From a virus, in the IMG/VR virus record IMGVR_UViG_3300009499_000021, positions 1 to 37,767 of that record: DNA of 37,767 bases. The stretch is one strand, 5' to 3'. The position numbers were made by a program, and so were the translations under genes. The notes below the pieces were generated by a model. It was not told where the DNA came from. It ran no database searches and worked only from the letters and a program-made list of their open reading frames with translations. Shown here one piece after another: positions 1 to 37,767 of this stretch. Numbering within the stretch: position 1 is the stretch's first letter; each line of letters opens with the position of its first letter.

Positions 1-21
1 ATCTGCCAGGTGTTTACGAAG
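1..21. other. Left half of candidate attachment site (attL end / half of attP)
   Basis: Bases 1-9 (ATCTGCCAG) are repeated exactly at the other end of the window. Bases 11-21 (TGTTTACGAAG) are the reverse complement of the 11 bases at 37749-37759. Joining the window ends over the 9-base repeat gives arm, 9-bp centre, arm, as in core sites of tyrosine recombinases, and an integrase gene lies beside it. The repeat and arms are seen directly; that it is the attachment core is inference. A transposon-like reading (TG...CA termini with a target duplication) is an alternative, but no DDE transposase is present. Confidence 0.6.
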
Positions 22-4458: not shown

Positions 4459-4628
4459 CCAAATCCATGCAACCTTACCTCGTCATCACCGCCCACGGGG
4501 TGTTCAAGGTCAAAGACGGCAAGATGAAGGAGTTAGAGCCGGACCCCGAGTTGGGTTGGGTCAACAGGGCCTTCTGGCTCTCGCACGCGCTGGATAAGGA
4601 TTTCGACCCGGCTAAGGATATACGATGA
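4428..4628 (+). CDS. Hypothetical protein, 66 aa
   Basis: A soluble acidic protein overlapping the zinc-ribbon gene at its 5' end and the DNA methyltransferase gene at its 3' end (ATGA), so it is embedded in an operon. It contains a beta-rich N-terminal half and an AFWLSHALDKDFD-like helix. It is possibly a partner of the methyltransferase, based on coupling alone. No family is recognised. Confidence 0.5.
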   Translation: MAEESIEVVLTKSMQPYLVITAHGVFKVKDGKMKELEPDPELGWVNRAFWLSHALDKDFDPAKDIR

Positions 4629-6076
4629 ATCTATTCTACGAGACCCCAGACGGAAGGGCGAAACTATATCTAGGCGATTCACGCCATCTCGACATTCCAG
4701 ATGAAAGCATAGATATGATCGCCACCTCTCCGCCTTATTGGGGGAAAAGAGATTATGGCGAAGATGTGGTAACGATATGGGGTGGAGATAATGGGTGTGA
4801 GCATGAGTGGGGCGGAGAAGTTATCCGTCCTGGTTCCACACAGGGTTGGAGTGACAAGAGCGGGCTTAAACGAGATGGTCGGCCAGAGGAATCACGGGTA
4901 AAAACCATACAATCTTCACCCAAGCGGGATACCCAACCAGGCGATGTTTCAGGGGGTTCCTACTGTTCCCTATGCTCCGCTTGGCGCGGCCAACTAGGGC
5001 TCGAACCCACCTGGCAAGAATACATATCTCATCTCTGCGAGTGCGCTAAAGAATGGATGAGAATTTTGAAGCCGACGGGGAATCTGTTTGTGAATATGGG
5101 GGATACGTTTCACGGTGGCAAGGGACAGAGCGGACACGGTTCGCCAGAATATCAAGCCGCTAGAGAGGGTATTTCGATAAACAAGCCTCAAGATCACATA
5201 GCGGGACCTGGGCTGACAAGGCCACAAGATGGAAGGGCAGGCATCCCCAAAATGAAACTCGGCATCCCCTACCGCCTCCGCTTCGCCCTCAACGACATGG
5301 GCTGGGTGAGCAGGGATGACATCATCTGGTACAAGGGCAAAGAATATCCCGATGGTCACATTACAAAGGTAGCCATGCCAGAGAGCGTGAAGGATAGGAT
5401 GTCGTGTTCGTATGAGATGGTCTTTCACTTTGTCAAAGAGCCGAAGGGGTACTGGTTTGATTTAGATGCGGTGAGAAGGCCACACACTAGCATGGAGGCG
5501 GGTCATAAAGAGTATATCCCCCGAAATGACAAGATAGTTCAATCTGTGGGCGTTAGCGAGAAGAGCAACATTCGAGGAGGCCATACCGCAGGAGCCAACC
5601 CTGGCGATGTTTGGATCATCCAACCAGAGCCTTTCAAGGAAGCCCACTATGCCGTCTGGCCCTCCAAACTCTGCGAGAGGATGATAAAGGTGGGATGCCC
5701 TAAAGAGGTATGCCCTAAGTGTGGGAAGCCGAGGGAGAGGATAACTGTGGGAAAAAGCCCAAACGCATTCAATGTTCGAGTGGCCGATGTGAAGGCGGGT
5801 CGTATCAAACATACAGACAGGGTGGCAAGCAAGGCCGAAGTTGAGGCTTATGATCCTAAAACCTATAGCGGACAAGGGAAACGAACCATCGGCTGGTCAG
5901 ACTGCGGATGCGGAGAGGGCTTTGTTCCTGGCGTCATTCTAGACCCCTTCTTTGGTGGAAGCGGAAGGATAGCAGAGAGGGCATTGTATTTTGGTAGGAA
6001 TGTCATCGGCGTAGATATGAAAGAAGAATACCTGGAGATGGCCAAGAAGCGGTTACTACAAGGGGTGCTTTTGTGA
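4625..6076 (+). CDS. Beta-class DNA methyltransferase, probably N4-cytosine
   Basis: The catalytic motif TSPPYW lies at residues 34-39, preceded by an LYLGDS motif at 14-19. The SAM-binding motif LDPFFGGSG is near residues 439-447, followed by IGVDMKEEYLEMA. Catalytic motif before SAM motif defines the beta class. SPPY/W is usual in N4-cytosine enzymes, though N6-adenine cannot be excluded. Central target-recognition sequence includes cysteine clusters (CSLC...CEC, then CPKEVCPKCGK and CGC), likely zinc-binding insertions. At 483 residues it is long for the class. No restriction gene is adjacent, so it probably protects phage DNA from host restriction. Confidence 0.88.
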   Translation: MNLFYETPDGRAKLYLGDSRHLDIPDESIDMIATSPPYWGKRDYGEDVVTIWGGDNGCEHEWGGEVIRPGSTQGWSDKSGLKRDGRPEESRVKTIQSSPKRDTQPGDVSGGSYCSLCSAWRGQLGLEPTWQEYISHLCECAKEWMRILKPTGNLFVNMGDTFHGGKGQSGHGSPEYQAAREGISINKPQDHIAGPGLTRPQDGRAGIPKMKLGIPYRLRFALNDMGWVSRDDIIWYKGKEYPDGHITKVAMPESVKDRMSCSYEMVFHFVKEPKGYWFDLDAVRRPHTSMEAGHKEYIPRNDKIVQSVGVSEKSNIRGGHTAGANPGDVWIIQPEPFKEAHYAVWPSKLCERMIKVGCPKEVCPKCGKPRERITVGKSPNAFNVRVADVKAGRIKHTDRVASKAEVEAYDPKTYSGQGKRTIGWSDCGCGEGFVPGVILDPFFGGSGRIAERALYFGRNVIGVDMKEEYLEMAKKRLLQGVLL

Positions 6077-6582: not shown

Positions 6583-6796
6583 TTTTCTCCTCTTGACCAA
6601 AGAAGAGGTAAGAGAGGCGAGGGAAGGCGATAGAAAATATATGTGTAAACGTTTCCTCCACTATAAGCCCGACAATTTTGGTTGTGTTGCTAAACAATCA
6701 TTATCACCAATCTGCCGTTTCTGCAAGGTTCTCACAGAGTTTGCGTCCCAGGGGGATCCCAAGGGGAAGGGAGGGGAAGATGATGTTTCCAAGTAA
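6575..6796 (+). CDS. Cys-containing hypothetical protein, 73 aa
   Basis: Overlaps the preceding stop by eight bases and the following start at 6780. It has four cysteines (C24, C37, then a CRFC pair near 47-50), suggestive of a small metal-binding fold. It begins with a short hydrophobic stretch but no full membrane segment. No family is recognised. Confidence 0.5.
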   Translation: MTDFLLLTKEEVREAREGDRKYMCKRFLHYKPDNFGCVAKQSLSPICRFCKVLTEFASQGDPKGKGGEDDVSK

Positions 6797-7215: not shown

Positions 7216-7650
7216 ATGGAGAAGTTGATAGAGGAGATACGCAAAGAACATTGTAAGACGTGCCTATTTCTGAGGTCTCTTGCCGAAGACAAATGCGGGG
7301 CATCTATTGAGCGTTGTAAGAAAGGAATAAACCGTGATGTCACTCTCGTCCTCTCCGCCGTCCGTGATGGGCGGTTGGATGAGGAGTTGGGGGTGGTTGG
7401 GCGAACCCCCTATAGAGCAAGGGTAATTTGGGATGAATGGGTAATAAAAGTGCTCAGAGATGGGGCAACCGAGTTTATCGCCCTTTCAGGGAGAGGGCAA
7501 AGAGGAGGAGGAATGAAAAGGCTACGGCACTTTCTATGGCGCATCTGCGGGATAAAATCCCAACAGCCGACGGTTTTCGAGGAGATTTTGGACTGGATGG
7601 ATGCTATATGTTCTTACAAAGTGGGGACAGGCAAAGAGGAGGAGGCGTGA
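7216..7650 (+). CDS. Hypothetical protein, 144 aa, with internal start signal
   Basis: GGAGGAATAGC precedes the ATG. The N-terminal third has cysteines CKTC at 13-16 and two more at 27 and 34, a possible metal site. An in-frame ATG at 7513 lies behind a very strong AGAGGAGGAGGA site and could make a separate 45-residue basic C-terminal product. The gene ends inside the GTG of the first glycosyltransferase (GTGA), so translation of the two is coupled. No family is recognised. Confidence 0.5.
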   Translation: MEKLIEEIRKEHCKTCLFLRSLAEDKCGASIERCKKGINRDVTLVLSAVRDGRLDEELGVVGRTPYRARVIWDEWVIKVLRDGATEFIALSGRGQRGGGMKRLRHFLWRICGIKSQQPTVFEEILDWMDAICSYKVGTGKEEEA

Positions 7651-8468
7651 GCAAAGCCCCGAAGACGACGGTCGTGCTGGCTTGCTACAATGGCGAGGAC
7701 TTCCTGCACAAACTTCTCTTTCTCTTATCGCATGAACCCTGCGAGGTCGTGGCAGTCGATGACAATAGTCGCGATGGCACCTGGCAGATCCTAGACCAGT
7801 ACGACTTCGTCCGGAAACTCAGGAACAACCAAAACAAAGGTTTTGCCGTAGTAAACAACCTGGGTGGATTCTTGGCGGACACCAAATATATTCTCTTCCT
7901 AAACCAAGACACGGAGCCCGAGCCGAGATTCATAAAGGCGATGGAAGAGCGGATGGAGGCAACCCCGGAATGCGCCGTCGTGGGGGCCAAGTTGATCTTC
8001 CCCGTGTCTAGTATCCGGCACATCGTTCTCGGAGAGCGTCCTCATGTTCTTACGAGAATCGCAGGAAGACTTGATAGTGCGGGGATCGATTTGAACCAAC
8101 AGTTCCTCCCCTACGAGGTCGGCAGGAACAACCATCCGGATATACCGGTCTTTAATGTAGCCAAGATGTGGCCGGCGGTGACGGGGGCGTGCATGCTGAT
8201 CAAGAGGAAAGCGTTCGGGGAATTGGGGGGGTTCTATGAAGACTTCATCAACGGCTGGGAAGATACCGATTTATGCTTGAGAGCCTGGGAATTGGGTTAC
8301 CAGGTGTGGTACACCCCGGAAGCAGTCGTGATGCACTACCACTCTACATCCGATGCCCGGTTTGTCAATGAGGATGCCAATATCGATCTCTGGGTCAAAC
8401 GCTGGTTTACAGAGGAGAGAATCGAGAGATTGGTTGGGAAATATAGAAAGGAGTGGGAAGAACAATGA
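7647..8468 (+). CDS. GT2-family glycosyltransferase (rhamnosyltransferase-like)
   Basis: Start is the GTG at 7647 with AGAGGAGGAG seven bases upstream; longer versions run into the previous gene. The GT-A fold is clear: nucleotide-binding VDDNSRDG at 37-44, a NQDTE metal-site motif at 86-90, GACMLIKR near 180, and a GWEDTDLCLRAWELGY acceptor/catalytic segment at 203-218. The pattern matches bacterial GT2 enzymes such as WbbL-like rhamnosyltransferases, which add a sugar from a nucleotide donor to a glycan or lipid carrier. 273 residues is normal. It opens the glycan operon and overlaps the next gene by four bases. Confidence 0.88.
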   Translation: MSKAPKTTVVLACYNGEDFLHKLLFLLSHEPCEVVAVDDNSRDGTWQILDQYDFVRKLRNNQNKGFAVVNNLGGFLADTKYILFLNQDTEPEPRFIKAMEERMEATPECAVVGAKLIFPVSSIRHIVLGERPHVLTRIAGRLDSAGIDLNQQFLPYEVGRNNHPDIPVFNVAKMWPAVTGACMLIKRKAFGELGGFYEDFINGWEDTDLCLRAWELGYQVWYTPEAVVMHYHSTSDARFVNEDANIDLWVKRWFTEERIERLVGKYRKEWEEQ

Positions 8469-9268
8469 TTAGCGTAATTATTCCAATCTACAACCGCAAG
8501 GACAATCTCCGCCTCGTCTTGGCGGCTCTCGAACGACAGACATACAAGGATTTCGAGGTCGTAGTCTCAGACGACGGCTCCACCGATGACCCTGAGCAAG
8601 TTCTTCGCGAGTTTGATACCCTCTTGGACCTTAAATTTGTGTCGCAACTCCACCGTGGTTATAGACTAAGTAAGGTCCGAAACAACGGAGTAGAGTTTGC
8701 TACCGGGTTTGCTCTCCTCTTTGACGATTCGGACGTGATGCTTAACCAATATGCTCTGGAGCACTACAAGAACATTTTTGAGGCGAACCCAACCATTATC
8801 ATAGGAGGTCGCTATGACTGGTTGCCTCCCATAAGGGAATATGAACTGGGGCAGGAGTTGGTTGGTATCGTCGGACTGGACCCAAGATGCGGGATTCCCG
8901 GCTTCTGGGACGATTCAGAAGCAGGACTTCGTACACGATACTGTCTGGACCTCTATGGCGGGAACCAGTTGATTCCTAGAGATGTCTACGAAATGTTGGG
9001 TGGTTATGACGAGAACATGGTAGGTCACGGGGGAGAGGATGCGGAGTTCGGCATACGAGCGCAGAAGGCGGGCGTCAGGGCGCTCTTCTCTCAAAAGGTC
9101 ATTGGCTGGCACCTGTATCATCACCGCGACCAGCAAAAGAACGAAGAGGAAGTTGCGAGAAACATTGAGTACATAGAGAAGAAGCACGACCTGGCGGAAT
9201 TAGGAATAGTCAGAGGTAAGGCGGGCCAGTTGCCCCTGGTGTACGAGGAGGTCGAAGATCATGTATAG
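8465..9268 (+). CDS. GT2-family glycosyltransferase with galactosyltransferase-like C-terminus
   Basis: Canonical GT-A motifs: SVIIPIYNR at the N-terminus, DDGST at 36-40, a DDSD metal site at 87-90, then GGYDENMVGHGGEDAEFGIRAQ at about 179-200, which is the galactosyltransferase-type C-terminal signature with the GGED catalytic segment, and histidines at 216-220. A distinctive GRYDWLPP motif at 115-122 recurs in the glycosyltransferase at 9604, so the two are paralogues. ATG overlaps the previous stop. Donor and acceptor cannot be told from sequence. Confidence 0.88.
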   Translation: MISVIIPIYNRKDNLRLVLAALERQTYKDFEVVVSDDGSTDDPEQVLREFDTLLDLKFVSQLHRGYRLSKVRNNGVEFATGFALLFDDSDVMLNQYALEHYKNIFEANPTIIIGGRYDWLPPIREYELGQELVGIVGLDPRCGIPGFWDDSEAGLRTRYCLDLYGGNQLIPRDVYEMLGGYDENMVGHGGEDAEFGIRAQKAGVRALFSQKVIGWHLYHHRDQQKNEEEVARNIEYIEKKHDLAELGIVRGKAGQLPLVYEEVEDHV

Positions 9269-9587
9269 ATGCGTCTATTGCGGCAATGAATACGAAGAGA
9301 AGGTTGGGCAATGCGAGGGTTGTGGGAGTAGGAAGTTTGAACAGGCACCACAGGGCTTGATAATCTTGGACCCAGGCGTTTCCTTCGTTCCCAAGCGATT
9401 GCCCCTTCGCACCATCTACAAGGGCCAGAAGCCGCCCCCCAAGCCCCTACCGCCACCGTTGCGACTTGAGGAGACGTACAAGGGCCTCATGCCAAGAGAT
9501 GGGTTTTGGGGCCCATTAGTCATAGTGCCCATTATAGTCATATTCTTGATGCTCCTGCCTTGGCTTATTTCGCTTCTTAGTTCCTAA
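9261..9587 (+). CDS. Zinc-ribbon membrane protein, 108 aa
   Basis: An N-terminal zinc ribbon (CVYC at 4-7 and CEGC at 18-21) is followed by a basic, proline-rich linker (PPPKPLPPP) and a strong C-terminal membrane segment (about residues 86-106). It would be tail-anchored with the ribbon in the cytoplasm. Start overlaps the preceding glycosyltransferase by eight bases. In a glycan operon it could be a membrane tether for the enzymes, an idea resting only on context. A similar ribbon-plus-membrane design occurs at 36307-36480. Confidence 0.6.
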   Translation: MYRCVYCGNEYEEKVGQCEGCGSRKFEQAPQGLIILDPGVSFVPKRLPLRTIYKGQKPPPKPLPPPLRLEETYKGLMPRDGFWGPLVIVPIIVIFLMLLPWLISLLSS

Positions 9588-9603
9588 TTTGAGGGGATGG
9601 AAG

Positions 9604-10434
9604 ATGTCCAAAATCGCGGTAGTGATCCCTACGTACAATCGAAAGAACATTCTAGCCCTGACCCTCGTAGGTTTGGTGAACCAGACTGTCCACGACTTCG
9701 AGATAGTCATTTGCGACGATGGAAGCACGGATGGGACGCACGGAATGGTGATGGGCTTCCATTACGTGCATTCCGCGGTTCACCTCAAATACTATTGGCA
9801 CAAGCATGAAGAAGGGGTCGAGAGGCAAGTGTCGCTCGCGCGCAATCAAGGAGCGAGGCTAGTCGCCAAAGAGACAACCCATATTCTCTTCCTGGATGGT
9901 GAAGTCGTCCTGAATCCCCAGGCCATAGAGAATTATTACGAACTCATCGCGGAGAAGCCCGGCGTCGTTATCTGCGGGAGGTACGACTGGTTGCCTCCCA
10001 TGGAGATCGATCTCCGTGACATAAGGCTTAGATGGGACGATTTCATTTCCGCGAACCTGCCGCGGTTGACACCCGAAGGCCCACGCGCTCCCGTCGGGAA
10101 GGACTTCCGAGGTGTCGTCTGGGATGATGGGGTGGAACACGAAGTATTCGCCGGGGCGGCGTTAAGCGGAAATCTCTTGATCCCTATTGAAGCCTTCTAT
10201 AAGACAGGCGGGTTCGATGAAGATTTGAAGGAGCGCGGGCAGGATTGCGAACATGGCTATGCTCTGCAATTCGCAGGTTTCAAGGCGATCTTCACCGCCA
10301 AGACGATCGGCTACCACGTCAACCATCCGGCAGCAGGAAGTGAAGGGAGATTGAGCGAAATCAGGGCGATTAGGTACATCCATGCCAAATACGACATTCC
10401 GCTTGATGAGAAAGATCTGCCCCCGGTGATATGA
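9604..10434 (+). CDS. GT2-family glycosyltransferase, paralogue of the gene at 8465
   Basis: Start at 9604 with GAGGGGATGGAAG upstream. GT-A motifs are IAVVIPTYNR at the N-terminus, DDGST at 38-42, LDGE at 97-100 in the metal-site position (a departure from the usual DxD), GRYDWLPP at 125-132, and GNLLIPIEAFYKTGGFDEDL near 195. In the catalytic segment the usual GGED is replaced by GQDCEHG. It shares the GRYDWLPP motif and overall layout with the gene at 8465, indicating duplication and divergence. The altered acidic residues suggest a changed donor, acceptor or activity. Confidence 0.85.
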   Translation: MSKIAVVIPTYNRKNILALTLVGLVNQTVHDFEIVICDDGSTDGTHGMVMGFHYVHSAVHLKYYWHKHEEGVERQVSLARNQGARLVAKETTHILFLDGEVVLNPQAIENYYELIAEKPGVVICGRYDWLPPMEIDLRDIRLRWDDFISANLPRLTPEGPRAPVGKDFRGVVWDDGVEHEVFAGAALSGNLLIPIEAFYKTGGFDEDLKERGQDCEHGYALQFAGFKAIFTAKTIGYHVNHPAAGSEGRLSEIRAIRYIHAKYDIPLDEKDLPPVI

Positions 10435-10435
10435 A

Positions 10436-11029
10436 ATGAGAGAATGGCCGGAAGAGTGCCCCACTGATCTTAAGGGCTGTAGCCAAGAGTGGTATGACGC
10501 CCAATGGATTTATGGTTTCGGGCACGATTCAGTCGAGATGAAAAAGCACATCTACACGGCCACCGCTACGGGTTGGATCGAGCCCCTGATGCCCTACGTG
10601 GTGGGCAAGGTCCTGGACATGGGATGCGGGATAGGTATAGCGGCACAATTCTGTGAGGAATATTGGGGAGTTGACTGGGCTTGGTCGGCGCTCAGAATAG
10701 CCAAAGAAGATTACCCGCACGGCACCTATCATTGTCTCAACTTGGAGACTGATAAGATCCCTTACCCTGACAAGTTCTTCGATACGGTGATCCTCTCAGA
10801 GATCCTTGAGCACCTGGAGGACTACACCCATTGCTTAGAAGAGACAAAGCGGTTAGCCAAGACCCGGGTCGTCGCCAACGTGCCCGTGGACATGCCCATT
10901 CCGATACACTATCACCCGACGTGGTCGGAGGAAGACTGTTATAGGGTGTTCGGTTATCTCGGCAAAGTGGAAAAAGTTTTCCCAATCGGCCACATGTTTC
11001 ATGGGGTAATAATCAGATGCTCAAAATAG
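10436..11029 (+). CDS. SAM-dependent methyltransferase, class I
   Basis: The Rossmann SAM-binding motif VLDMGCGIG occurs near residues 59-67, followed by a motif II region (YWGVDWAWSALRIAKE) and the motif IV/V region FDTVILSEILEHLEDY near 115-130. This is the Methyltransf_11-like pattern of small-molecule or sugar methyltransferases. The 197-residue size is compact and lacks an obvious substrate-binding cap. It lies between glycosyltransferase genes and overlaps the next methyltransferase by 13 bases, suggesting O-methylation of a sugar product. Substrate is inferred from context only. Confidence 0.82.
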   Translation: MREWPEECPTDLKGCSQEWYDAQWIYGFGHDSVEMKKHIYTATATGWIEPLMPYVVGKVLDMGCGIGIAAQFCEEYWGVDWAWSALRIAKEDYPHGTYHCLNLETDKIPYPDKFFDTVILSEILEHLEDYTHCLEETKRLAKTRVVANVPVDMPIPIHYHPTWSEEDCYRVFGYLGKVEKVFPIGHMFHGVIIRCSK

Positions 11030-11499
11030 ATGTGGGGTGCGGGACAGAGAGGCACAAGGATTGCAACATCGGCCTGGACAAACACGACTTCTCGGCCCAC
11101 TACGAAGAGGGGACGTTCCTTCAGCACGATATCCTTGACCCGCTTCCCTTTGAAGACGACTCCGTGGATTGGCTATATTGCCATCACGTTCTCGAACACC
11201 TGGTGCATAGGCATCCAACTAAAGATATTGATGCACTTATCTATGTGATCAACGAGTTCAATCGCGTGCTCAAAGTTGCTGAAGAAGCGTATATCGTTGT
11301 GCCCTGGATTGAGCACACGAACGCCTGGAGGCATCCTACCCATTACCGCTTCTTCAACTATGAGATCTTCCATTGGTTCGACTTCAGGAATCCTACCCCG
11401 GATCACGTGGCCGAGGGCTTGATAGGGGAGTGGTGGGTTACAAGACACGACATTGTGGATGAGTGCCATGTGGTTGCAGTTCTAAGGAAAGTGAAATGA
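11017..11499 (+). CDS. Second SAM-dependent methyltransferase-like protein
   Basis: Starts directly with the SAM motif LKIDVGCGTERH at residues 2-13, followed by NIGLDKHDF and the DSVDWLYCHHVLEHL segment (residues 48-62) that corresponds to the conserved LEHV motif of methyltransferases. 160 residues is short. Histidine-rich sequence around 85-110 is unusual. Overlap with the preceding methyltransferase gene and the next small gene indicates one translational unit. It may methylate a sugar or cap a glycan, as non-reducing-end methyltransferases do in O-antigen systems. Confidence 0.75.
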   Translation: MLKIDVGCGTERHKDCNIGLDKHDFSAHYEEGTFLQHDILDPLPFEDDSVDWLYCHHVLEHLVHRHPTKDIDALIYVINEFNRVLKVAEEAYIVVPWIEHTNAWRHPTHYRFFNYEIFHWFDFRNPTPDHVAEGLIGEWWVTRHDIVDECHVVAVLRKVK

Positions 11500-11654
11500 G
11501 CGGGCTTATTATTCCCGAGCCTCACGCAAGTAAGTTGAAAGAAGCATTCCACAAAGCCCGAGTTATTAAGGGGAAGGATATCATGTTAAAGATGAAGCGG
11601 TCAATTCTTGCTTGGGAGAAATTACTTGTAGAATTAAAGGACAAAGAAAAATGA
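11496..11654 (+). CDS. Small basic helical protein, 52 aa
   Basis: Coupled by four-base overlaps to both the methyltransferase upstream and the glycosyltransferase downstream. It is lysine-rich and probably one or two helices, with no cysteines and no membrane segment. The sequence is more AT-rich than its neighbours. No family is recognised; it may be a small partner of the enzymes. Confidence 0.45.
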   Translation: MSGLIIPEPHASKLKEAFHKARVIKGKDIMLKMKRSILAWEKLLVELKDKEK

Positions 11655-12400
11655 AATTCGCCAGCATCGTCGTGCTCAGTTTCAACCGGCCGGAGTTCCT
11701 TGCGAACAGCATAGCGAGTCTTCATGGCAACACACTCTATCCCTACGAACTGATTATCGTGGACGATGGGTCGGGTTGTTTGGAAACGATCGATTACATC
11801 TGGGGCTTAGTGGCTGAACGACGAATCTCAACGGTTATCTTTAACTGTGGTAGGAACATAGGGATCGGCGCCGGGCTCAATCGGGGTTTTGGCATCGCAA
11901 AAGGCGATTACCTCGTCAAAGTCGATGCGGACTTCGAATATAAGGAAGGTTGGCTTACCGAAGCGGTCGACCTACTTGAGACCTTCCCAGAGGTCGGGGT
12001 CCTTGGCTTCTTCCACTACCATTGGGACCCCTGTGACCACAAGAAAAAGTACATCGAGTACAAGGAGCGGGAAGGTAGGTATGTGGAGATCGTCGAGGAC
12101 TTCGTGGGCTTTGGTGCGATGAAGTGCGAGGTTTATGAGGAGAACGGCCCGTTCACCGAAGACGGGCGGGCCTTCGCCGAGGACGTGGACTACAAATTGC
12201 GGTTGCAGGACCGGGGCTATCTCCTCGGGTTGCCTATTGAGGACAAAGTGGTGAACACAGGCTTCGGCGAGACGAAGTCATCACTTATCAAGAGCGTGGG
12301 CACTCCCGGGGATCCTTCGACCTATGTTTACAATGTCCCCATACAGGAGAGGTTGATCTTCGTGCAGGGGAAGCCCGTGCCGTATGATGGAGGCGAATAA
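11651..12400 (+). CDS. GT2-family glycosyltransferase, fourth in the operon
   Basis: Clear GT-A signatures: ASIVVLSFNRPEFL at the N-terminus, VDDGS at 37-41, the metal-binding VDAD at 91-94, and AFAEDVDYKLRLQDRGY at 174-190 as the acidic catalytic segment. The middle (EIVEDFVGFGAMKCEVYEE) resembles GT2 enzymes of surface-polysaccharide clusters. It lacks GRYDWLPP, so it is more distant from the 8465/9604 pair. No membrane segment is present, so it would act in the cytoplasm, on a nucleotide sugar and a lipid, protein or glycan acceptor. Confidence 0.85.
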   Translation: MKFASIVVLSFNRPEFLANSIASLHGNTLYPYELIIVDDGSGCLETIDYIWGLVAERRISTVIFNCGRNIGIGAGLNRGFGIAKGDYLVKVDADFEYKEGWLTEAVDLLETFPEVGVLGFFHYHWDPCDHKKKYIEYKEREGRYVEIVEDFVGFGAMKCEVYEENGPFTEDGRAFAEDVDYKLRLQDRGYLLGLPIEDKVVNTGFGETKSSLIKSVGTPGDPSTYVYNVPIQERLIFVQGKPVPYDGGE

Positions 12401-12594: not shown

Positions 12595-13005
12595 ATGATT
12601 AAGCCCGCTGTCTTGACCAAGCAAGAGAAGAAAGACCTGGATGAGATCAACAAGGCGAATCTTCACATAGCCCTTCAAGAACGCTCGGGGGCTTTAGAGA
12701 GGGGCATCCTTCTTAGCGAGATCACCGGGCGGCCCGGATACAAGGTCGAACTCCACCATATCCTCGGCCGAGGGATTCCCGACGGATTTGAAAAAGCCCC
12801 CGATATCATCAAAGAGTTCTGGCCCCACATTCCTCCCGGGTGCGTCTTCTTGACCACGGCGGAGCACCAACACGCTGCGGGCAATTCCAAGATGATGAGG
12901 CGCTTGCTATTGAGGTGGGTTTTGATAGAATACATGGAAGAGGTCTGGCAAGGGCGGCCCTATTGGGAGTGGCTGAACGAACCGCCATTTCGAGAATGGT
13001 TATGA
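12595..13005 (+). CDS. HNH-like endonuclease, putative
   Basis: Residues about 50-90 contain VELHHILGRG followed by GCVFLTTAEHQHAAGNS, matching the His-His ... Asn/His arrangement of ββα-metal (HNH) nucleases, without the zinc knuckles. Such small nucleases are common near terminase genes and can assist packaging, and terS lies 0.7 kb downstream. The C-terminal part is tryptophan-rich. The match to HNH is by motif shape only; a non-catalytic relative cannot be excluded. ATG follows immediately after the upstream TGA. Confidence 0.5.
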   Translation: MIKPAVLTKQEKKDLDEINKANLHIALQERSGALERGILLSEITGRPGYKVELHHILGRGIPDGFEKAPDIIKEFWPHIPPGCVFLTTAEHQHAAGNSKMMRRLLLRWVLIEYMEEVWQGRPYWEWLNEPPFREWL

Positions 13006-13139: not shown

Positions 13140-13158
13140 TTGACAACCACAAAGGATA
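13140..13158 (+). repeat. TTGACAACC repeat, copy 1
   Basis: The 19-base sequence TTGACAACCACAAAGGATA occurs here and again at 13413, with a two-base-shorter version at 13462. It contains a -35-like TTGACA but no good -10 at the right distance. It also ends in the ribosome site of the next gene. It may be an operator or a duplicated promoter element. Confidence 0.6.
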
Positions 13159-13167
13159 GGAGGAGGA

Positions 13168-13416
13168 ATGGCGGACGATAGAATGGCTATAGTTTGTAAA
13201 GAGTGCCAATCGGGCATCGCAATTGCGAAATTCTGGCATAGGGGGGGATGGACGAGCCCTTTGTTGAACGAGGGAAGGCTCAATGCGTTCTTTGCCAAGC
13301 ATGCAGATTGTGTTGGTGAGGAAGGATATGGTGGACGCCACTATTACTTGGGTTATGAGATGGATGGGAGTGATTGGGTATATGACGAGCCAGAAGTGCC
13401 AGTTTCAAGGGCTTGA
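13168..13416 (+). CDS. Hypothetical protein, 82 aa, Cys/His-containing
   Basis: Preceded by AGGAGGA. It has CKEC at residues 10-13 and later His and Cys residues (HADC), which could bind a metal, followed by a Gly/Tyr-rich middle and an acidic tail. It lies between two copies of the TTGACAACC repeat; its stop codon overlaps the second copy. The context suggests a regulated, separately expressed gene. Family is unknown. Confidence 0.5.
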   Translation: MADDRMAIVCKECQSGIAIAKFWHRGGWTSPLLNEGRLNAFFAKHADCVGEEGYGGRHYYLGYEMDGSDWVYDEPEVPVSRA

Positions 13417-13431
13417 CAACCACAAAGGATA
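13413..13431 (+). repeat. TTGACAACC repeat, copy 2
   Basis: Exact 19-base copy of the element at 13140. The TGA stop of the preceding gene lies inside it. No convincing TATAAT-like hexamer is found 16-18 bases downstream, so it may act as a binding site rather than a promoter. It is 49 bases upstream of copy 3, which is a full promoter. Confidence 0.6.
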
Positions 13432-13461: not shown

Positions 13462-13490
13462 TTGACAACCAAAGGATAGTATGCTATAAT
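13462..13490 (+). promoter_or_regulatory. Consensus sigma-70 promoter (repeat copy 3)
   Basis: TTGACA at 13462-13467 and TATAAT at 13485-13490 are both perfect consensus and separated by exactly 17 bases. The start of transcription should be near 13497. It carries the third, shortened copy of the TTGACAACC repeat (13462-13478). It reads toward the small gene at 13513, a terminator and the packaging/structural operon. Confidence 0.88.
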
Positions 13491-13703: not shown

Positions 13704-13730
13704 GCCGACATCGAAAGGTGTCGGCTTTTT
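13704..13730 (+). terminator. Intrinsic terminator upstream of terS
   Basis: Stem GCCGACA (13704-13710) and TGTCGGC (13719-13725) around an eight-base loop, followed by TTTTT (13726-13730) and preceded by AAAAA, so it could work in both directions. It lies seven bases before the first possible terminase start, so the packaging genes would need readthrough, antitermination or another promoter. Confidence 0.82.
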
Positions 13731-19023: not shown

Positions 19024-19099
19024 TCATCTCCTTAACTTGGGTTATGGGGGCGACAAGCCATGTATGACCCCATATCTACAAAGAAAAGGAGGTATCAAA

Positions 19100-20392
19100 G
19101 TGGATATAGGAAAGTTGAGAGAAGAGGCGTTGGTTCTGACCAAGAAAGGCCAGGATCTCATAGAGAAGATCATGGCCGGGGAAGAGCCTGCCGAGAAGTT
19201 GGAACAGGCCCAGGCTTTCGTCGATGAAGGCGGGGCCAAGATGGACCTTGCAGGTGCGGCTGTCAAAGCCTCGGCACAGGAGGTGCTCCTAATCGACGGG
19301 TTGGGTTCCTTGACGGTAGCCACCCCCAAGGACGTCGTCGTCGACAAGACGGGAGTCGCGTGGAAGTCCCTTGAGGAATACCTGGTGTCGATCGCCGCTA
19401 TGGGCGACCCTGCTGTTAGGGCGCAGGTGGAAGCCAAGGGATACTTGGGCGAGGGATGGCAGACGAAGTTGCTCTCCGAGGCTGTGGGAGCGGCTGGGGG
19501 ATTCTTAGTTCCGATCGAGTATCGACCGGAGATCTTCCAGAAGGCGTATGAGGACAGCATCGTTCGGCCCCTGGCCACGGTGCTCCCGATGAGCGTGCGC
19601 CAACTCCAGATGCCGTCCCTGGACCAGACCATTACCCCCGACGCGCCGAAGTCGGCGTTCCAGGGCGGAATGGTGTTCTTCTGGACGGAGGAAGGCGCTC
19701 CCAAGACGGAAGTCGACTTGAAGTTTAAGTTGATTGACCTCGTGTGCCACGAATACTCCGGCTATCTGCCCGTCACCAACATCCTGATCGCCGACTCCCC
19801 CATCTCGCTGGAGACACTGATCCGCACTCAGTTCGGCAAAACCTCCGCCGGCTACGAGGACTGGCACTTCCTCAATGGCTCTGGCGTAGGCCAGCCGCAG
19901 GGAGTGATCTCCGCGGGTGCCACCCTCCAGCCGAACAGGGCGGGAGCGAACCACATCGTGTGGGCGGACATCATGGCCATGCTCCACAACTTCCAGCCCG
20001 GTGCTAACGGCAGGTGGGTCATACACCACTGTTGCCTGGAGGAACTCTTGCAGTTGCAGGACGGTCTCGGCAACTACATGTGGATCCCCAACATGCGGGA
20101 CGGCATACCGACCTATCTAATGGGCTATCCGATCATCTGGACGGAGAAGGTTCCCGCCCTCGGCACCAAGGGGGACATCGGGTTGTACGACTTCTCCTAC
20201 TACCTGATCGGCGACCGCCAGCAGCCGACCATCGACTCCAGCATCCACTACAAGTTCATCGAGAACCAGACGACCTTCCGTCTGGCCGCTAGAGTGGATG
20301 GGCAGCCCTGGCTGACGGCCCCCATCATGTTGATGCCGGCGGGAACGTCGAGCATCAGCCCGTTCGTGTCGCTGGACGTGCCAGCAGCGTAA
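19100..20392 (+). CDS. Major capsid protein, HK97 fold
   Basis: The GTG at 19100 is chosen because AAAGGAGGT lies seven bases upstream; an in-frame ATG at 19037 has no such site. The first about 120 residues are helical and acidic, as expected for a delta domain cleaved by the adjacent protease. The mature part (from about residue 130) has the Phage_capsid pattern: GGFLVPIEYRPEIFQKAYEDSIVRPLATVLPM, DWHFLNGSGVGQPQGVISAGA, and GYPIIWTEKVPALGTKGDIGLYDFSYYLIGDR, then ARVDGQPWLTAPIML. 430 residues is typical. Copies assemble into the icosahedral head. Confidence 0.9.
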   Translation: MDIGKLREEALVLTKKGQDLIEKIMAGEEPAEKLEQAQAFVDEGGAKMDLAGAAVKASAQEVLLIDGLGSLTVATPKDVVVDKTGVAWKSLEEYLVSIAAMGDPAVRAQVEAKGYLGEGWQTKLLSEAVGAAGGFLVPIEYRPEIFQKAYEDSIVRPLATVLPMSVRQLQMPSLDQTITPDAPKSAFQGGMVFFWTEEGAPKTEVDLKFKLIDLVCHEYSGYLPVTNILIADSPISLETLIRTQFGKTSAGYEDWHFLNGSGVGQPQGVISAGATLQPNRAGANHIVWADIMAMLHNFQPGANGRWVIHHCCLEELLQLQDGLGNYMWIPNMRDGIPTYLMGYPIIWTEKVPALGTKGDIGLYDFSYYLIGDRQQPTIDSSIHYKFIENQTTFRLAARVDGQPWLTAPIMLMPAGTSSISPFVSLDVPAA

Positions 20393-20987: not shown

Positions 20988-21221
20988 ATGCGAGTCCAAG
21001 TGACGACCCCATTCCATGGCAAAGAGGAGGAACGCCTCCTCAGGGTAGGACAGATCATAACTGTTACTCAGGATCGAGGCGAGCGTATGATAGCCAGGGG
21101 GTTGGGGATTATAGCCCCCGATCTCCCAGAGCCCAAACCAAAGGCCAAGAAGCGCAAGAAGGCAAAGAAGCCCGCCGAGGACAAGGCGCAGAGACCCACC
21201 GAGGATAAGACTGAGAGATAA
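20988..21221 (+). CDS. Small protein, member 1 of a three-copy family
   Basis: Resembles the proteins at 22065 and 26860: a start of MRVxV, then F...G, a RVGQIITV-like strand, then an ERMIARGLGII-like helix. This copy has a C-terminal tail rich in lysine, proline, alanine and glutamate (residues about 45-77), probably disordered. The conserved core looks like a small beta-strand plus helix fold, as in phage head-completion or tail accessory proteins. It overlaps the glycosyltransferase-like gene by one base. The role is unknown. Confidence 0.55.
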   Translation: MRVQVTTPFHGKEEERLLRVGQIITVTQDRGERMIARGLGIIAPDLPEPKPKAKKRKKAKKPAEDKAQRPTEDKTER

Positions 21222-22075
21222 TGCGCGTACTTGTCGCTTACCCGATCCAGCGAGGAAGACTGTTCCGCCATTCCCTCGATTCTGTCATGGGCCAGGAATG
21301 GGACGGGCAACTGGACTTCTTCCACCTCTTGGGGGGCGATTTCCCGATACCTTCTGTGAACAACGTCGTCCGCAAGTATAACCAGGCCCGGGAGGTGGTT
21401 CTCAAGTGTGGCTATGACGCTTTGTTCACGGCGGAATGCGACATCATCATGCCGAGGGACGCCCTGAAGCGTCTTGCCGCCGTGGATGCAGATGTAGTGT
21501 ATGGGCTCTACGTCTGGCGTCGCGGCCACCCTTCCTGGAACGCCTATTCCTACGTGGGCGGCAGGACCGCGAGGTCGTTCAGTAGAGACTTAGCGTTGGC
21601 TAAAGCATCGTGGGGAAAAGTCGTCGGGGTCAAGGGTCTCGGGAATGGATGCACATTGATACACCGCCGCGTCCTTGAAAAGTTCCCGTTCAGGAAGATG
21701 CCCGTGCAACAGCACAGTTGTGACTGGGCGTTGTCCGTGGATTGCCAGGAGGCCGGGTTCGTGCAGAAGTGTGATCTTTCGGTCATCTGCGGGCACATCG
21801 ACCACTTTCATAATGAGCAAGTGCCCTTCATCCGTTGGCCTGATATTACGCAGAGGGGGCTTTATCGGATTTCAGACGTTGGTCCCATACCGGAGGATCT
21901 CGAAACCAACGCGCTCGTTTACCTGAAAGATATGACCGGGGACATGAAGGTCAAGATGCTGGAACGCGCCCACCTGGGGAATAGCGCCATGGCGCAGGCC
22001 GGCGAGGTGATCGAGTTGGCGAAGGCGCAGGCCAAACAAATGGTTTGGGACGGGGTAGCAGAACGTGCGGGTTAA
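21221..22075 (+). CDS. Glycosyltransferase-like protein in the capsid operon
   Basis: Resembles GT-A glycosyltransferases of phages encoded beside capsid genes: N-terminal MRVLVAYPIQRGR, an AECDIIMPRDAL metal-site-like motif at 71-82, VVGVKGLGNGCTLIHRRVLEKFPF near 125-147, and CDWALSVDCQEAGF...CGHIDHFHNEQ near 167-200 as the acidic/histidine-rich catalytic end. The DxD-like motif is weaker than in the 7.6-12.4 kb enzymes. The C-terminal 70 residues are helical. Because it is flanked by capsid genes it may modify the virion, but the substrate is unproven. Confidence 0.7.
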   Translation: MRVLVAYPIQRGRLFRHSLDSVMGQEWDGQLDFFHLLGGDFPIPSVNNVVRKYNQAREVVLKCGYDALFTAECDIIMPRDALKRLAAVDADVVYGLYVWRRGHPSWNAYSYVGGRTARSFSRDLALAKASWGKVVGVKGLGNGCTLIHRRVLEKFPFRKMPVQQHSCDWALSVDCQEAGFVQKCDLSVICGHIDHFHNEQVPFIRWPDITQRGLYRISDVGPIPEDLETNALVYLKDMTGDMKVKMLERAHLGNSAMAQAGEVIELAKAQAKQMVWDGVAERAG

Positions 22076-25773: not shown

Positions 25774-26850
25774 ATGACTACAGGAGTGAGGGACCTACGG
25801 CACATCGAGATTTCATTTCAGGATACGGTAGTGCCACCCGCGGCGGGCTGGGATACCTGTCAAGTCGCCATGACCGACCGGCTCCTGGGCACCTGCGGGA
25901 TGAAGAAAGTGATTGACCGGGTCTTTCCCACCGAGGCGACGGGGCTGATGTCCGACCACATCATCAATAGGTATTACGATAAGTCGGTCTTGGCCGAACT
26001 GCCCATCAGCACGGGGGACGAGGGGCTGACCTTTATGCAACTCCCCTGGTACTTGAACATGGGCGCGGTTGGGGTCCTTGCGGGCGCAGGCGGGCTTTGG
26101 ACGTTCGCGCCGACATTGACGGCCGCCGACGTGCCCTACCCGGCCACCATCCGCTACGGGGACAACGTCACACCCGCGTGGGAATCGTGCTGCTGCTTCG
26201 CCAGGCAGTTGGTGATAAGCGGGGCGTTCCAAGGACCCTGGAACATGGAGGCCGACATTGTCGGCAGGGACATGGTGGAGCACGCCTTTGAGAGCCCGCT
26301 TCTCCCCTATCCGACGACGACGGCGGGTGCTCCGCTGGAGACTATCCTGGGGCAGATGACGGTGCTCAATCAAGATACGACTTGCGCCTTCGCCGCCCCC
26401 GGGAAGATAGACGGCTACCTCATCGATTGGAGGCTGACTATACCAGGCTTCCACGCCAAGTTCTTCCAAGATGGCCGCCTCGACTTTTCGATCATGGGTT
26501 TGGCCTCCCGGCATTTGACCTTCGAGGCCACGGTCGAGTGGGACAGCGTATTCGCGGCCACGGAACACGCGATCTGGGCAACGAGCCACATGGTGACCCC
26601 AGTCAGCGCGCCGCGCTACTTCCAATTGGTGGCTACTGGCGGCACCCCGGTCGCCATACCACCAGCCGCGGCGAAGGATGTCACCATCAACATGGTGTTG
26701 ATGTACGAGTCCTTCGAGACGCTGGAGGAGCGGGACGGTAATGACATCATCAAGTTCACGGCCCGAACCGCCTACGACGTGGCTTGTGCCGTGGCGAACG
26801 TTGCAGAGTGGGAGATCATAGTCAACAACACCGAGATTACGCTGCCATAG
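25774..26850 (+). CDS. Major tail tube protein
   Basis: 358 residues, beta-rich, between the tail terminator-like gene and the tail assembly chaperone, which is the standard place for the tail tube protein. It has strands such as RHIEISFQDTVVPPAAGWDT and WRLTIPGFHAKFFQDGRLDFSIMG, and a C-terminal region NMVLMYESFETLEERDGNDIIKFTART typical of tube proteins. AAAGGAGGTGACAAG upstream is a near-perfect ribosome site, consistent with high expression. It should form the tube between neck and tip. Confidence 0.75.
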   Translation: MTTGVRDLRHIEISFQDTVVPPAAGWDTCQVAMTDRLLGTCGMKKVIDRVFPTEATGLMSDHIINRYYDKSVLAELPISTGDEGLTFMQLPWYLNMGAVGVLAGAGGLWTFAPTLTAADVPYPATIRYGDNVTPAWESCCCFARQLVISGAFQGPWNMEADIVGRDMVEHAFESPLLPYPTTTAGAPLETILGQMTVLNQDTTCAFAAPGKIDGYLIDWRLTIPGFHAKFFQDGRLDFSIMGLASRHLTFEATVEWDSVFAATEHAIWATSHMVTPVSAPRYFQLVATGGTPVAIPPAAAKDVTINMVLMYESFETLEERDGNDIIKFTARTAYDVACAVANVAEWEIIVNNTEITLP

Positions 26851-36495: not shown

Positions 36496-37488
36496 CTATA
36501 AGATCATCCTATCCACCGGCGATGCTTTCCGGTGGGCTTCCGCTAAGTCCTCCTCGGCCAGCATAACGTATCTTCTCGTCATGTCAAGTTTCGAGTGACC
36601 GAGCAGCCTTTGGAGTGCGAAGACGTTGCCGCCGCCCCTTATGAAATTCGTGCCGAAAGTGTGCCTAAGCCGATGGCCACTACTGTTACACCTGGGGATT
36701 CTTGCCTCGTCCATCTTGTTGCGGATGATCTCCGAGAGATAATGGGGGCGCATGGTGGCATAGGTCGAGCGGGTCGTCGGAGGGAAGAGCGTGCCGTGGC
36801 CGTTGGCGATGCCTGGGCGGCAGTTCTCGATATAAGTGCGTAGCATCCTTTCCATCTTCTGCCCTATGTAGACGGTCCTATGCTTGCGGCCCTTGCCGTC
36901 CACCGCGATGCTGGAACGGTCGAAGTCGATATCGGCTGTCGAGAGCCGAACCACCTCACTGACTCGAAGGCCGGTATCCAGAATGAGCAGGCAGATCACT
37001 TGGTCTCGTTGCTGGGATGGCTTGTCGAGGTCGAAGGAATCGAGGAGGCGGTGGACTTGCTCGCCAGTCAACGGGAGAATGTCGCGCATCGGTCCCCTGG
37101 GGTTCGGAACGAGGCGCATGGGGTTTTCGTCCCGGGCGATCACTTCGTCGAGCACCAGGAACGTGAAGAGTGCCCGCAGGGCTGTCAACTCGGCGCGAGC
37201 CGTCAAATGGCTTTTGCCGCTGGCCAGCCTGTGGGCGACGAACTCCCGGATGCGTCGGGCGGTTATCTCGGCTTCCTCGCCGTGTGCTTGCGTGAACCAC
37301 CGGTAGAAGCGTCGAAGTCCATCTCCGTACGTGATGAGGGTTCTTGGTGAGAGGTTTCTTGCGAGGTTGTAGGCATGGAAAGCGTCGAGGTGCCGCCGGA
37401 GATTCTGCGCTTTCACTAACCCACTATACAGCATATTCGAGCCCGCCTTGAAAGTAAACAGTACCTTTGTCCTATCCGCTATTTCCAT
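36496..37488 (-). CDS. int: Tyrosine-family site-specific integrase
   Basis: 330-residue XerC/D-like tyrosine recombinase. The N-terminal core-binding domain covers about 30-125 (LSPRTLITYGDGLRRFYRWF). The catalytic residues are R175 in TGLRVSE, a lysine in GKGRKHR (199-202), H272 and R275 in GHRLRHTF, H298 in LGHS, and the nucleophile Y307 in RRYV. It should cut and rejoin DNA at the attachment site found at the ends of the window, 270 bases away. No additional N-terminal arm-binding domain is obvious. It is transcribed leftward, divergently from the RHH gene. Confidence 0.93.
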   Translation of the reverse strand: MEIADRTKVLFTFKAGSNMLYSGLVKAQNLRRHLDAFHAYNLARNLSPRTLITYGDGLRRFYRWFTQAHGEEAEITARRIREFVAHRLASGKSHLTARAELTALRALFTFLVLDEVIARDENPMRLVPNPRGPMRDILPLTGEQVHRLLDSFDLDKPSQQRDQVICLLILDTGLRVSEVVRLSTADIDFDRSSIAVDGKGRKHRTVYIGQKMERMLRTYIENCRPGIANGHGTLFPPTTRSTYATMRPHYLSEIIRNKMDEARIPRCNSSGHRLRHTFGTNFIRGGGNVFALQRLLGHSKLDMTRRYVMLAEEDLAEAHRKASPVDRMIL

Positions 37489-37615: not shown

Positions 37616-37756
37616 ATGGGAAACGACGAACTGAAGAACCTCAAGATAGACCCTGAATTGCACCAGCAAGTCAAGATTAGGGCGGCGGAGACCAATAGGA
37701 AGATCCGTGAAGTGGTCGAGGCGGCCCTCCGTCTTTTTTTAGCACAGCCTTCGTAA
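37616..37756 (+). CDS. Ribbon-helix-helix DNA-binding protein, 46 aa
   Basis: Beginning LKNLKIDPELHQQVKIRAAETN and continuing RKIREVVEAALRLFL, it has the beta-strand, helix, helix pattern of Arc/MetJ-type regulators, which bind DNA as dimers. It lies next to the integrase and divergent from it, and its own promoter is consensus. It could be a repressor of early genes, an excisionase-like factor or a self-regulator. The stop codon lies inside the right arm of the attachment core. It ends with a T7 run within CTT TTT TTA. Confidence 0.75.
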   Translation: MGNDELKNLKIDPELHQQVKIRAAETNRKIREVVEAALRLFLAQPS

Positions 37757-37767
37757 ACATCTGCCAG
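37748..37767. other. Right half of candidate attachment site (attR end / half of attP)
   Basis: CTTCGTAAACA at 37749-37759 is the inverted partner of 11-21. ATCTGCCAG at 37759-37767 repeats bases 1-9. When joined, arm (11), centre TCTGCCAGG (9), arm (11) forms a perfect palindrome-type core next to the integrase. The arms are seen directly and the core-site role is inferred from the arrangement. Confidence 0.6.

Follow-up and report, generated by a model that had tools for sequence, protein, structure and literature searches.

The closest described counterparts of the locus analyzed here come from mycobacteriophages. As summarized in two papers (PMC12363180, PMC11256854), virion proteins of Che8, Corndog and Myrna are glycosylated by phage glycosyltransferases (GTs), of which Che8 gp110 and Corndog gp38 are essential for capsid glycosylation; the Myrna enzyme belongs to a separate structural cluster (PMC12363180). 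According to the same papers, virion glycosylation, which has been demonstrated in few phages, alters antibody recognition of mycobacteriophages (PMC11256854, PMC12363180). In the Corndog-type cluster O, an O-methyltransferase and three GTs encoded between the portal and the protease have been proposed to modify the capsid by glycosylation and methylation (PMC4351075). Here we analyze a single virus record, IMGVR_UViG_3300009499_000021, the whole 37,767 bp of which is referred to below as the window, and specifically its segment 7647-12400, where 8 co-directional genes form one compact operon encoding 4 GT2-family GTs, 2 class I S-adenosylmethionine (SAM)-dependent methyltransferases, a zinc-ribbon/transmembrane (TM) protein and a 52-aa protein. 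The function that we favor for this cassette, with a probability of about 0.48, is sequential glycosylation of a virion protein in the cytosol, with methyl capping.

Gene content and protein families of the cassette

The cassette consists of the following genes.

7647-8468, plus strand: GT_A, GT2-family glycosyltransferase, 273 aa (PF00535, 4.5e-21)
8465-9268, plus strand: GT_B, GT2-family glycosyltransferase, 267 aa (PF00535, 6.4e-24; DSD and ED motifs present)
9261-9587, plus strand: 108-aa zinc-ribbon-like protein with an N-terminal CxxC...CxxC pattern and a C-terminal hydrophobic helix (hydropathy maximum 2.84 at residue 87)
9604-10434, plus strand: GT_C, GT2-family glycosyltransferase, 276 aa (PF00535, 3.8e-18)
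10436-11029, plus strand: MT1, class I SAM-dependent methyltransferase, 197 aa (PF08241, 1.9e-12, above the curated cut-off)
11017-11499, plus strand: MT2, short class I SAM-dependent methyltransferase, 160 aa (PF08241, 9.5e-6, above the curated cut-off; phrog_6636 methyltransferase, 9.9e-6)
11496-11654, plus strand: 52-aa helical protein (43% identity over 53 aa, E 1e-10, to a homologue in related phages)
11651-12400, plus strand: GT_D, GT2-family glycosyltransferase, 249 aa (PF00535, 5.9e-22; DAD and ED motifs present)

This gene content and these coordinates agree with a preliminary description of the region: the open reading frames (ORFs) lie where it had placed them, and both the GTs and the methyltransferases have Pfam matches. 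Beginning with the junction to the gene upstream of the cassette, and with overlaps given as negative values, the junctions measure -4, -4, -8, +16, +1, -13, -4 and -4 bp, followed by -1 bp to the next gene; four-base overlaps are found at 4 of the 9 junctions, not at most of them as had been described, the remaining 5 being three overlaps of other lengths (8, 13 and 1 bp) and two gaps (16 and 1 bp).

All four GTs exceed the PF00535 cut-off and belong to the GT2 family, and the AlphaFold model of GT_B (pLDDT 70, pTM 0.76) has the GT-A fold. The nearest solved relatives of GT_B and GT_C are the domains of the E. coli K4 chondroitin polymerase (K4CP), to which GT_B (phmmer, 2z86/2z87, 1.6e-31) and GT_C (1.5e-26) could be aligned and which is also the top PDB match of the GT_B model in Foldseek (E 6e-16), with the wall-teichoic-acid enzymes TarS, TarP and RmlT among the structural neighbours. 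GT_D matches K4CP at 6e-10 and SpsA at 7e-6. For GT_A, the matches to TIGR03965 (2e-21) and TIGR01556 (3.3e-12), both under the curated cut-offs, hint at a closest resemblance to rhamnosyltransferase/MftF-type GT2 enzymes. GT_C is a paralogue of GT_B (33% identity, E 4.8e-38) in which QD takes the place of ED as the C-terminal acidic motif and DGE replaces the usual DxD, and because of the latter substitution its activity appears less certain. Given this paralogy, 4 GTs need not mean 4 sugars; the four successive sugar transfers envisaged in the preliminary description are unsupported, as GT_B and GT_C could share a step.

MT1 weakly matches the mycofactocin oligosaccharide methyltransferase MftM (1.4e-8, far under the curated cut-off), which is a hint only, and as a query of viral sequences it retrieved no relative. 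The zinc-ribbon label of the 108-aa protein derives mainly from its CxxC...CxxC pattern, the Pfam matches being sub-threshold (Zn_Ribbon_1, 0.014; Zn_ribbon_LapB, 0.012), and its TM helix is predicted from hydropathy; this protein is a possible membrane tether. The 52-aa helical protein has no match in Pfam, PHROG or PADLOC. Its gene lies inside the sugar cassette here, but in the related phages L014 and L015 (L015:13961-14119) the homologue directly follows the portal gene, and therefore we regard the 52-aa protein as a phage protein and not as a component of a sugar pathway.

Absence of the cassette from a close relative

The closest relative of the window phage, G001 (IMGVR_UViG_3300024263_000002, 40,864 bp), encodes a TerL 80% identical to that of the window and a syntenic virion module, with identities of about 68% for the major capsid protein (MCP), 74% for the tape measure and 64-74% for the tail proteins. 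A PF00535 search of all of G001 gave no match, that is, no GT2 gene, and the corresponding stretch, from the 3D gene to the HNH-like gene, contains small ORFs only, one homologous to the window ORF at 6678 and none a sugar gene. Given its absence from such a close relative, the cassette is accessory. Both ends of the G001 contig (L015 and L028) carry diverged portal copies, 71% and 59% identical to that of the window, along with second copies of neighbouring genes, which suggests that these ends are redundant and were assembled from strain variants.

The absence from G001 would also be expected of passing cargo that came from a host polysaccharide locus and has little or no function for the phage, and the altered metal-binding motif of GT_C and the GC content of the cassette (0.50-0.53, slightly below that of the virion module) point in the same direction. 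This origin nevertheless appears improbable, given that all 8 frames are intact and tightly packed, that GC and strand match those of the neighbouring early genes, and that sets of GT and methyltransferase genes recur in unrelated phage contigs.

Position of sugar genes across the terminase lineage

By TerL alignment alone, 64 viral loci were recruited which, together with L026, form 38 TerL clusters at 90% identity; these were surveyed with HMMs for GT2, GT4, epimerase, DegT, methyltransferase and fucosyltransferase. Sugar-gene matches upstream of TerL were detected in 0 of the 24 clusters having 5 kb or more of upstream sequence; of the 23 clusters having 8 kb or more of downstream sequence, 9 gave downstream matches, invariably on the TerL strand. 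Some of the HMM seeds used here were taken from the same downstream modules, and the flanks end at 10 kb. The downstream sugar genes start directly behind the capsid candidate, for which PHROG support is strong in L068 and L077 and weak in L024, L025, L017 and L061; in loci of the L026/L047/L052/L053 type the candidate has no PHROG match and was assigned by position. Entire sugar modules separate capsid from connector-like genes in G002, G016 and G017 and also in the GT-recruited, unrelated contigs L007 and L009, the connector genes in several contigs being assigned by position and sequence character, without a database match. Because sugar genes of this lineage are found downstream of TerL and never upstream, the window cassette is oddly placed for its lineage, yet Che8-like in position.

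Sugar-assembly modules were seen just downstream of the putative major capsid gene in the environmental phages L024, L025/L032, L026/L033, L030, L047, L052, L053, L057, L061, L068, L077, L007 and L009, and, in loci long enough to show it, they continue as far as the connector genes. Another unrelated phage contig (L012:9944-16049) encodes several GT2-like paralogues with interspersed methyltransferases after tail-type genes.

In both the window and G001, the post-capsid sugar-gene position is occupied by a further candidate GT.

21221-22075, plus strand: GT_E, putative GT-A-like protein, encoded after the major capsid gene and before the connector genes (phrog_12406 glycosyltransferase, 0.008)

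GT_E is 51% identical (E 7e-81) to its G001 homologue (L028:8408-9217), which is likewise kept between capsid and connector and was the sole match in a viral scan with GT_E; no homologue was found in the phage collection. The hhalign comparison with the GT2 set was weak (prob 3.8%, E 0.011), and the structure model has a pLDDT of 30, at an alignment depth that is too small. A functional partnership of GT_E with the cassette is something that we only infer. An anti-phage or counter-defence role was rejected, as a PADLOC scan of GT_A, GT_E, MT1 and MT2 gave no match other than a weak one to MADS-2, for the methyltransferase domain of MT1. Between its capsid-side genes and the GT_E homologue, G001 encodes LicD, a cytidylyltransferase, a PhnD-like phosphonate-binding protein and an ABC permease (L028:5861-8403), a possible phosphocholine/polyol-phosphate decoration or phosphonate-uptake module.

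A broader conjecture, and a doubtful one, is that the virion surface serves the phages of this terminase lineage as an exchangeable coat, with capsid-side or pre-terminase cassettes swapped between relatives. Otherwise similar particles would then acquire different chemical surfaces, such as a methylated oligosaccharide in the window phage and a possible phosphocholine/polyol-phosphate-type decoration (LicD/cytidylyltransferase) in G001. Recurrent capsid-adjacent sugar genes in environmental phages, different from one close relative to the next, would point to glycosylated particles being widespread beyond the mycobacteriophages, and would offer a simple genomic marker for such particles. The practical value of the present case lies in a defined 8-gene set that one of two phages with otherwise similar virion proteins carries and the other lacks.

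Genome context and expression

Beyond the cassette and GT_E, the following features are relevant.

4625-6076: N4/N6-type DNA methyltransferase
13462-13490, plus strand: consensus promoter TTGACA-17-TATAAT with an extended -10 (TG), between the cassette and the terminase genes
13704-13725: terminator-like stem
36496-37488, minus strand: tyrosine integrase (E 1e-52)

The gene order is siphovirus-like: Gam, Erf, an HTH protein, the N4/N6 DNA methyltransferase and a 3D/peptidase-like protein precede the sugar cassette, which is followed by an HNH-like gene (recognized by motif only), TerS/TerL, portal, protease and major capsid protein, then by connector, tail genes, an SLT-domain lysin-like gene and the minus-strand integrase. 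Located inside the rightward operon, upstream of the HNH-like gene and TerS/TerL, the cassette is about 13 kb from the integrase across the joined ends and about 24 kb directly. The two ends of the window (1-21 and 37749-37767) share a 9-nt direct repeat, ATCTGCCAG, and when joined they form a 10-bp perfect inverted repeat flanking an 11-bp spacer (CTTCGTAAAC-ATCTGCCAGGT-GTTTACGAAG), the arms CTTCGTAAAC and GTTTACGAAG occurring once each in the window; next to the integrase, the joined ends look like an attP core. Given the integrase and the att-like ends, the phage is probably temperate, which corrects the earlier assignment of the cassette to the lytic part of the genome, and the record is probably a near-complete genome, so that the absence of further sugar genes carries meaning. 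Thus, we are apparently dealing with a temperate phage, uncultured and tailed; megablast of the window against phages gave no match, and a host search by a TerL scan of genome contigs yielded only distant, isolated TerL genes in Calditrichaceae and Brocadia metagenome-assembled genomes.

At the locus of the N4/N6-type DNA methyltransferase, G001 encodes a C5-cytosine methyltransferase (L015:3505-4746), that is, DNA-methylation genes have been exchanged at one locus between the two phages.

For the cassette itself, no convincing promoter was found (10 promoter-like sites against 6.9 expected). G001 has a conserved counterpart of the 13462-13490 promoter (L015:9154-9182; chance expectation 0.01). 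With the cassette upstream of this promoter and GT_E downstream, the cassette may share its transcription with the early/middle genes and is perhaps not expressed late. A repeated motif, TTGACAACCACAAAGG, is present at 13140-13155, 13413-13428 and 13462-13490, the third copy being degenerate and inside the perfect promoter; a similar arrangement is seen in G001 (L015:8645, 8920, 9154), and L014 has 2 copies. These repeats are a possible regulatory region ahead of the terminase genes.

Absent pathways and candidate acceptors

The flippase family (PF01943) was not found in the near-complete record, nor were the polyprenyl-phosphate sugar transferase (PF02397), nucleoside diphosphate (NDP)-sugar epimerase (PF01370), nucleoside triphosphate transferase (PF00483) and thymidylate-synthase-type hydroxymethylase (PF00303) families in the window, each of the five being recovered in 9-14 control genomes; the preliminary description, which saw no flippase or hydroxymethyl enzyme, holds on this point. 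The Tet_JBP search gave no match in the window and none in any control genome either. A Wzx/Wzy-type polysaccharide pathway does not fit a window with no initiating transferase, flippase or NDP-sugar genes found (the polymerase was not searched separately).

Glycosylation of modified bases in the phage DNA is a reading for which we see very little room. Phage GTs are capable of it (cited in PMC12619734), and this phage also encodes the N4/N6-type DNA methyltransferase. However, T-even-type DNA glucosylation combines a base hydroxymethylase with a DNA GT, and it is unlikely here because the required base-modification enzyme (PF00303) was not found; among the scanned genes no other base-hypermodification gene was recognized, the GTs resemble polysaccharide/protein GT2 enzymes and the methyltransferases are closer to those of the small-molecule/sugar type.

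The GT2 enzymes are soluble, and genes for an initiating polyprenyl-phosphate transferase or a flippase were not found, which points to sugar addition in the cytosol from host NDP-sugars. Fitting acceptors would be virion proteins, host proteins, and host lipid-linked or wall-polymer precursors; of these, virion proteins are favored because of the mycobacteriophage precedent and the position of sugar genes in the lineage.

The chief competitor, tentative and less probable than a virion substrate, is that the enzymes add methylated sugars to a host-made glycan (a cell-wall polymer, a glycolipid, or an S-layer or pilus glycan), which would serve superinfection exclusion, prevent re-adsorption of progeny to debris, or bring about lysogenic conversion. 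Lysogeny is likely from the integrase and the att-like ends, the distribution of the cassette is accessory, and the cassette precedes the conserved terminase promoter and includes a membrane-anchored member; the structural neighbours TarS, TarP and RmlT of GT_B, the occurrence of phage-borne TarP among the hits, and several PHROG matches, albeit weak, to GtrB-like proteins of O-antigen conversion also fit. Nevertheless, a Gtr conversion module is not what we find: we see neither a GtrA-type flippase (PF01943) nor a GtrB that has TM helices nor a Gtr enzyme of the multi-TM kind, and apart from the single-helix 108-aa protein no cassette product is TM-rich. Furthermore, the cassette, with no convincing promoter of its own, is part of the rightward operon and not beside attP, and relatives place their sugar genes with the capsid gene.

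Several observations weigh against a virion substrate. The virion proteins of G001 are closely similar (MCP about 68%, tail proteins 64-74%), yet it has no GT2 gene; the cassette occupies a site ahead of the terminase promoter instead of the capsid position, and possible early expression weakens the case further; the membrane-anchored member is no less compatible with a substrate in the membrane or host envelope; the GT nature of GT_E is weakly supported by sequence comparison; and neither Che8 gp110 nor Firecracker gp36, the capsid-initiating enzymes, has an orthologue among the window GTs. A Ser/Thr-rich C-terminal extension as the glycan site was also rejected, none distinctive being found in the window capsid (19037-20392) and tail-tube (25774-26850) proteins compared with G001. 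The earlier preference for virion or host-protein glycosylation is thus borne out in part: Che8, cluster O and the capsid-adjacent sugar genes of the lineage support the virion, and modification of the host surface keeps the lower but appreciable probability given above.

Proposed function of the cassette

Under the virion-substrate reading, the cassette would serve a siphovirus, probably a temperate one, as an accessory module for glycan assembly, for which we infer the following protein substrate, order of steps, role of GT_E and benefit. The cytosolic GT2 enzymes would draw on host nucleotide sugars and build a short oligosaccharide stepwise, directly on an abundant virion protein (capsid, capsid decoration or tail tube). 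GT_E may represent a more conserved step, e.g., transfer of the first sugar onto the protein, with GT_A to GT_D extending the chain, and O-methylation of the sugars by MT1, MT2 or both would cap them or mark their identity. The zinc-ribbon/TM and 52-aa proteins may serve the enzymes as tether or scaffold. A particle decorated in this way would differ in adhesion, stability or recognition.

Comparison with known systems

In Che8 (L038), a GT-O-methyltransferase fusion (gp108) and two further GTs (gp109, gp110) are followed by a small gene, an HNH gene, cos and TerS/TerL. The window likewise has consecutive GT2-type and methyltransferase genes, then an HNH-like gene and TerS/TerL, with no adjoining sugar-export genes; several GTs with or without an O-methyltransferase in consecutive genes are the arrangement that it shares with both Che8 and the Corndog type (Firecracker, L039). 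The Che8 set comprises 3 genes as opposed to 8, its O-methyltransferase is fused whereas those of the window are separate and unrelated, and of the two phages it is only Che8 for which capsid glycosylation is established. Alignment of the window GTs, including GT_E, to Che8 gp110 and Firecracker gp36 (standing for Corndog gp38) gave no significant match, and similarity to Che8 gp109/gp110 is weak and of the general GT2 level, so orthology to the Che8 or Firecracker enzymes was rejected. Homology of the HNH-like gene at 12595 to the Che8 HNH gene was likewise unsupported by alignment. The gp33-gp36-type block of Corndog/Firecracker (cluster O) is, like the window cassette, a compact set of methyltransferase and GT genes (three GTs there), but it lies in the virion operon, between portal and protease, and its sequences are not orthologous.

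The Gtr modules (gtrA, gtrB and a type-specific gtr) share with the window a phage-borne GT2 and the weak GtrB-like PHROG matches, whereas the window has soluble GTs, no flippase or membrane GT, and a cassette that does not adjoin attP. TarP, TarS and RmlT have the GT-A fold and belong to the GT2 family, as do the window GTs, and TarP occurs on phages; however, they are single enzymes with C-terminal trimerisation domains, and the window GTs are short, 4 in number and accompanied by methyltransferases. In the chlorovirus PBCV-1, the capsid protein bears a methylated glycan built by virus-encoded GTs together with a methyltransferase; this is a eukaryotic virus with multidomain enzymes, and the likeness drawn here is one of described function. 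Because none of its GTs is an orthologue, the window cassette is not a member of the Che8/Corndog family, but by analogy it would work like these systems: given that the Myrna GT falls into a different structural cluster, the lack of a significant match bars orthology, not analogy.

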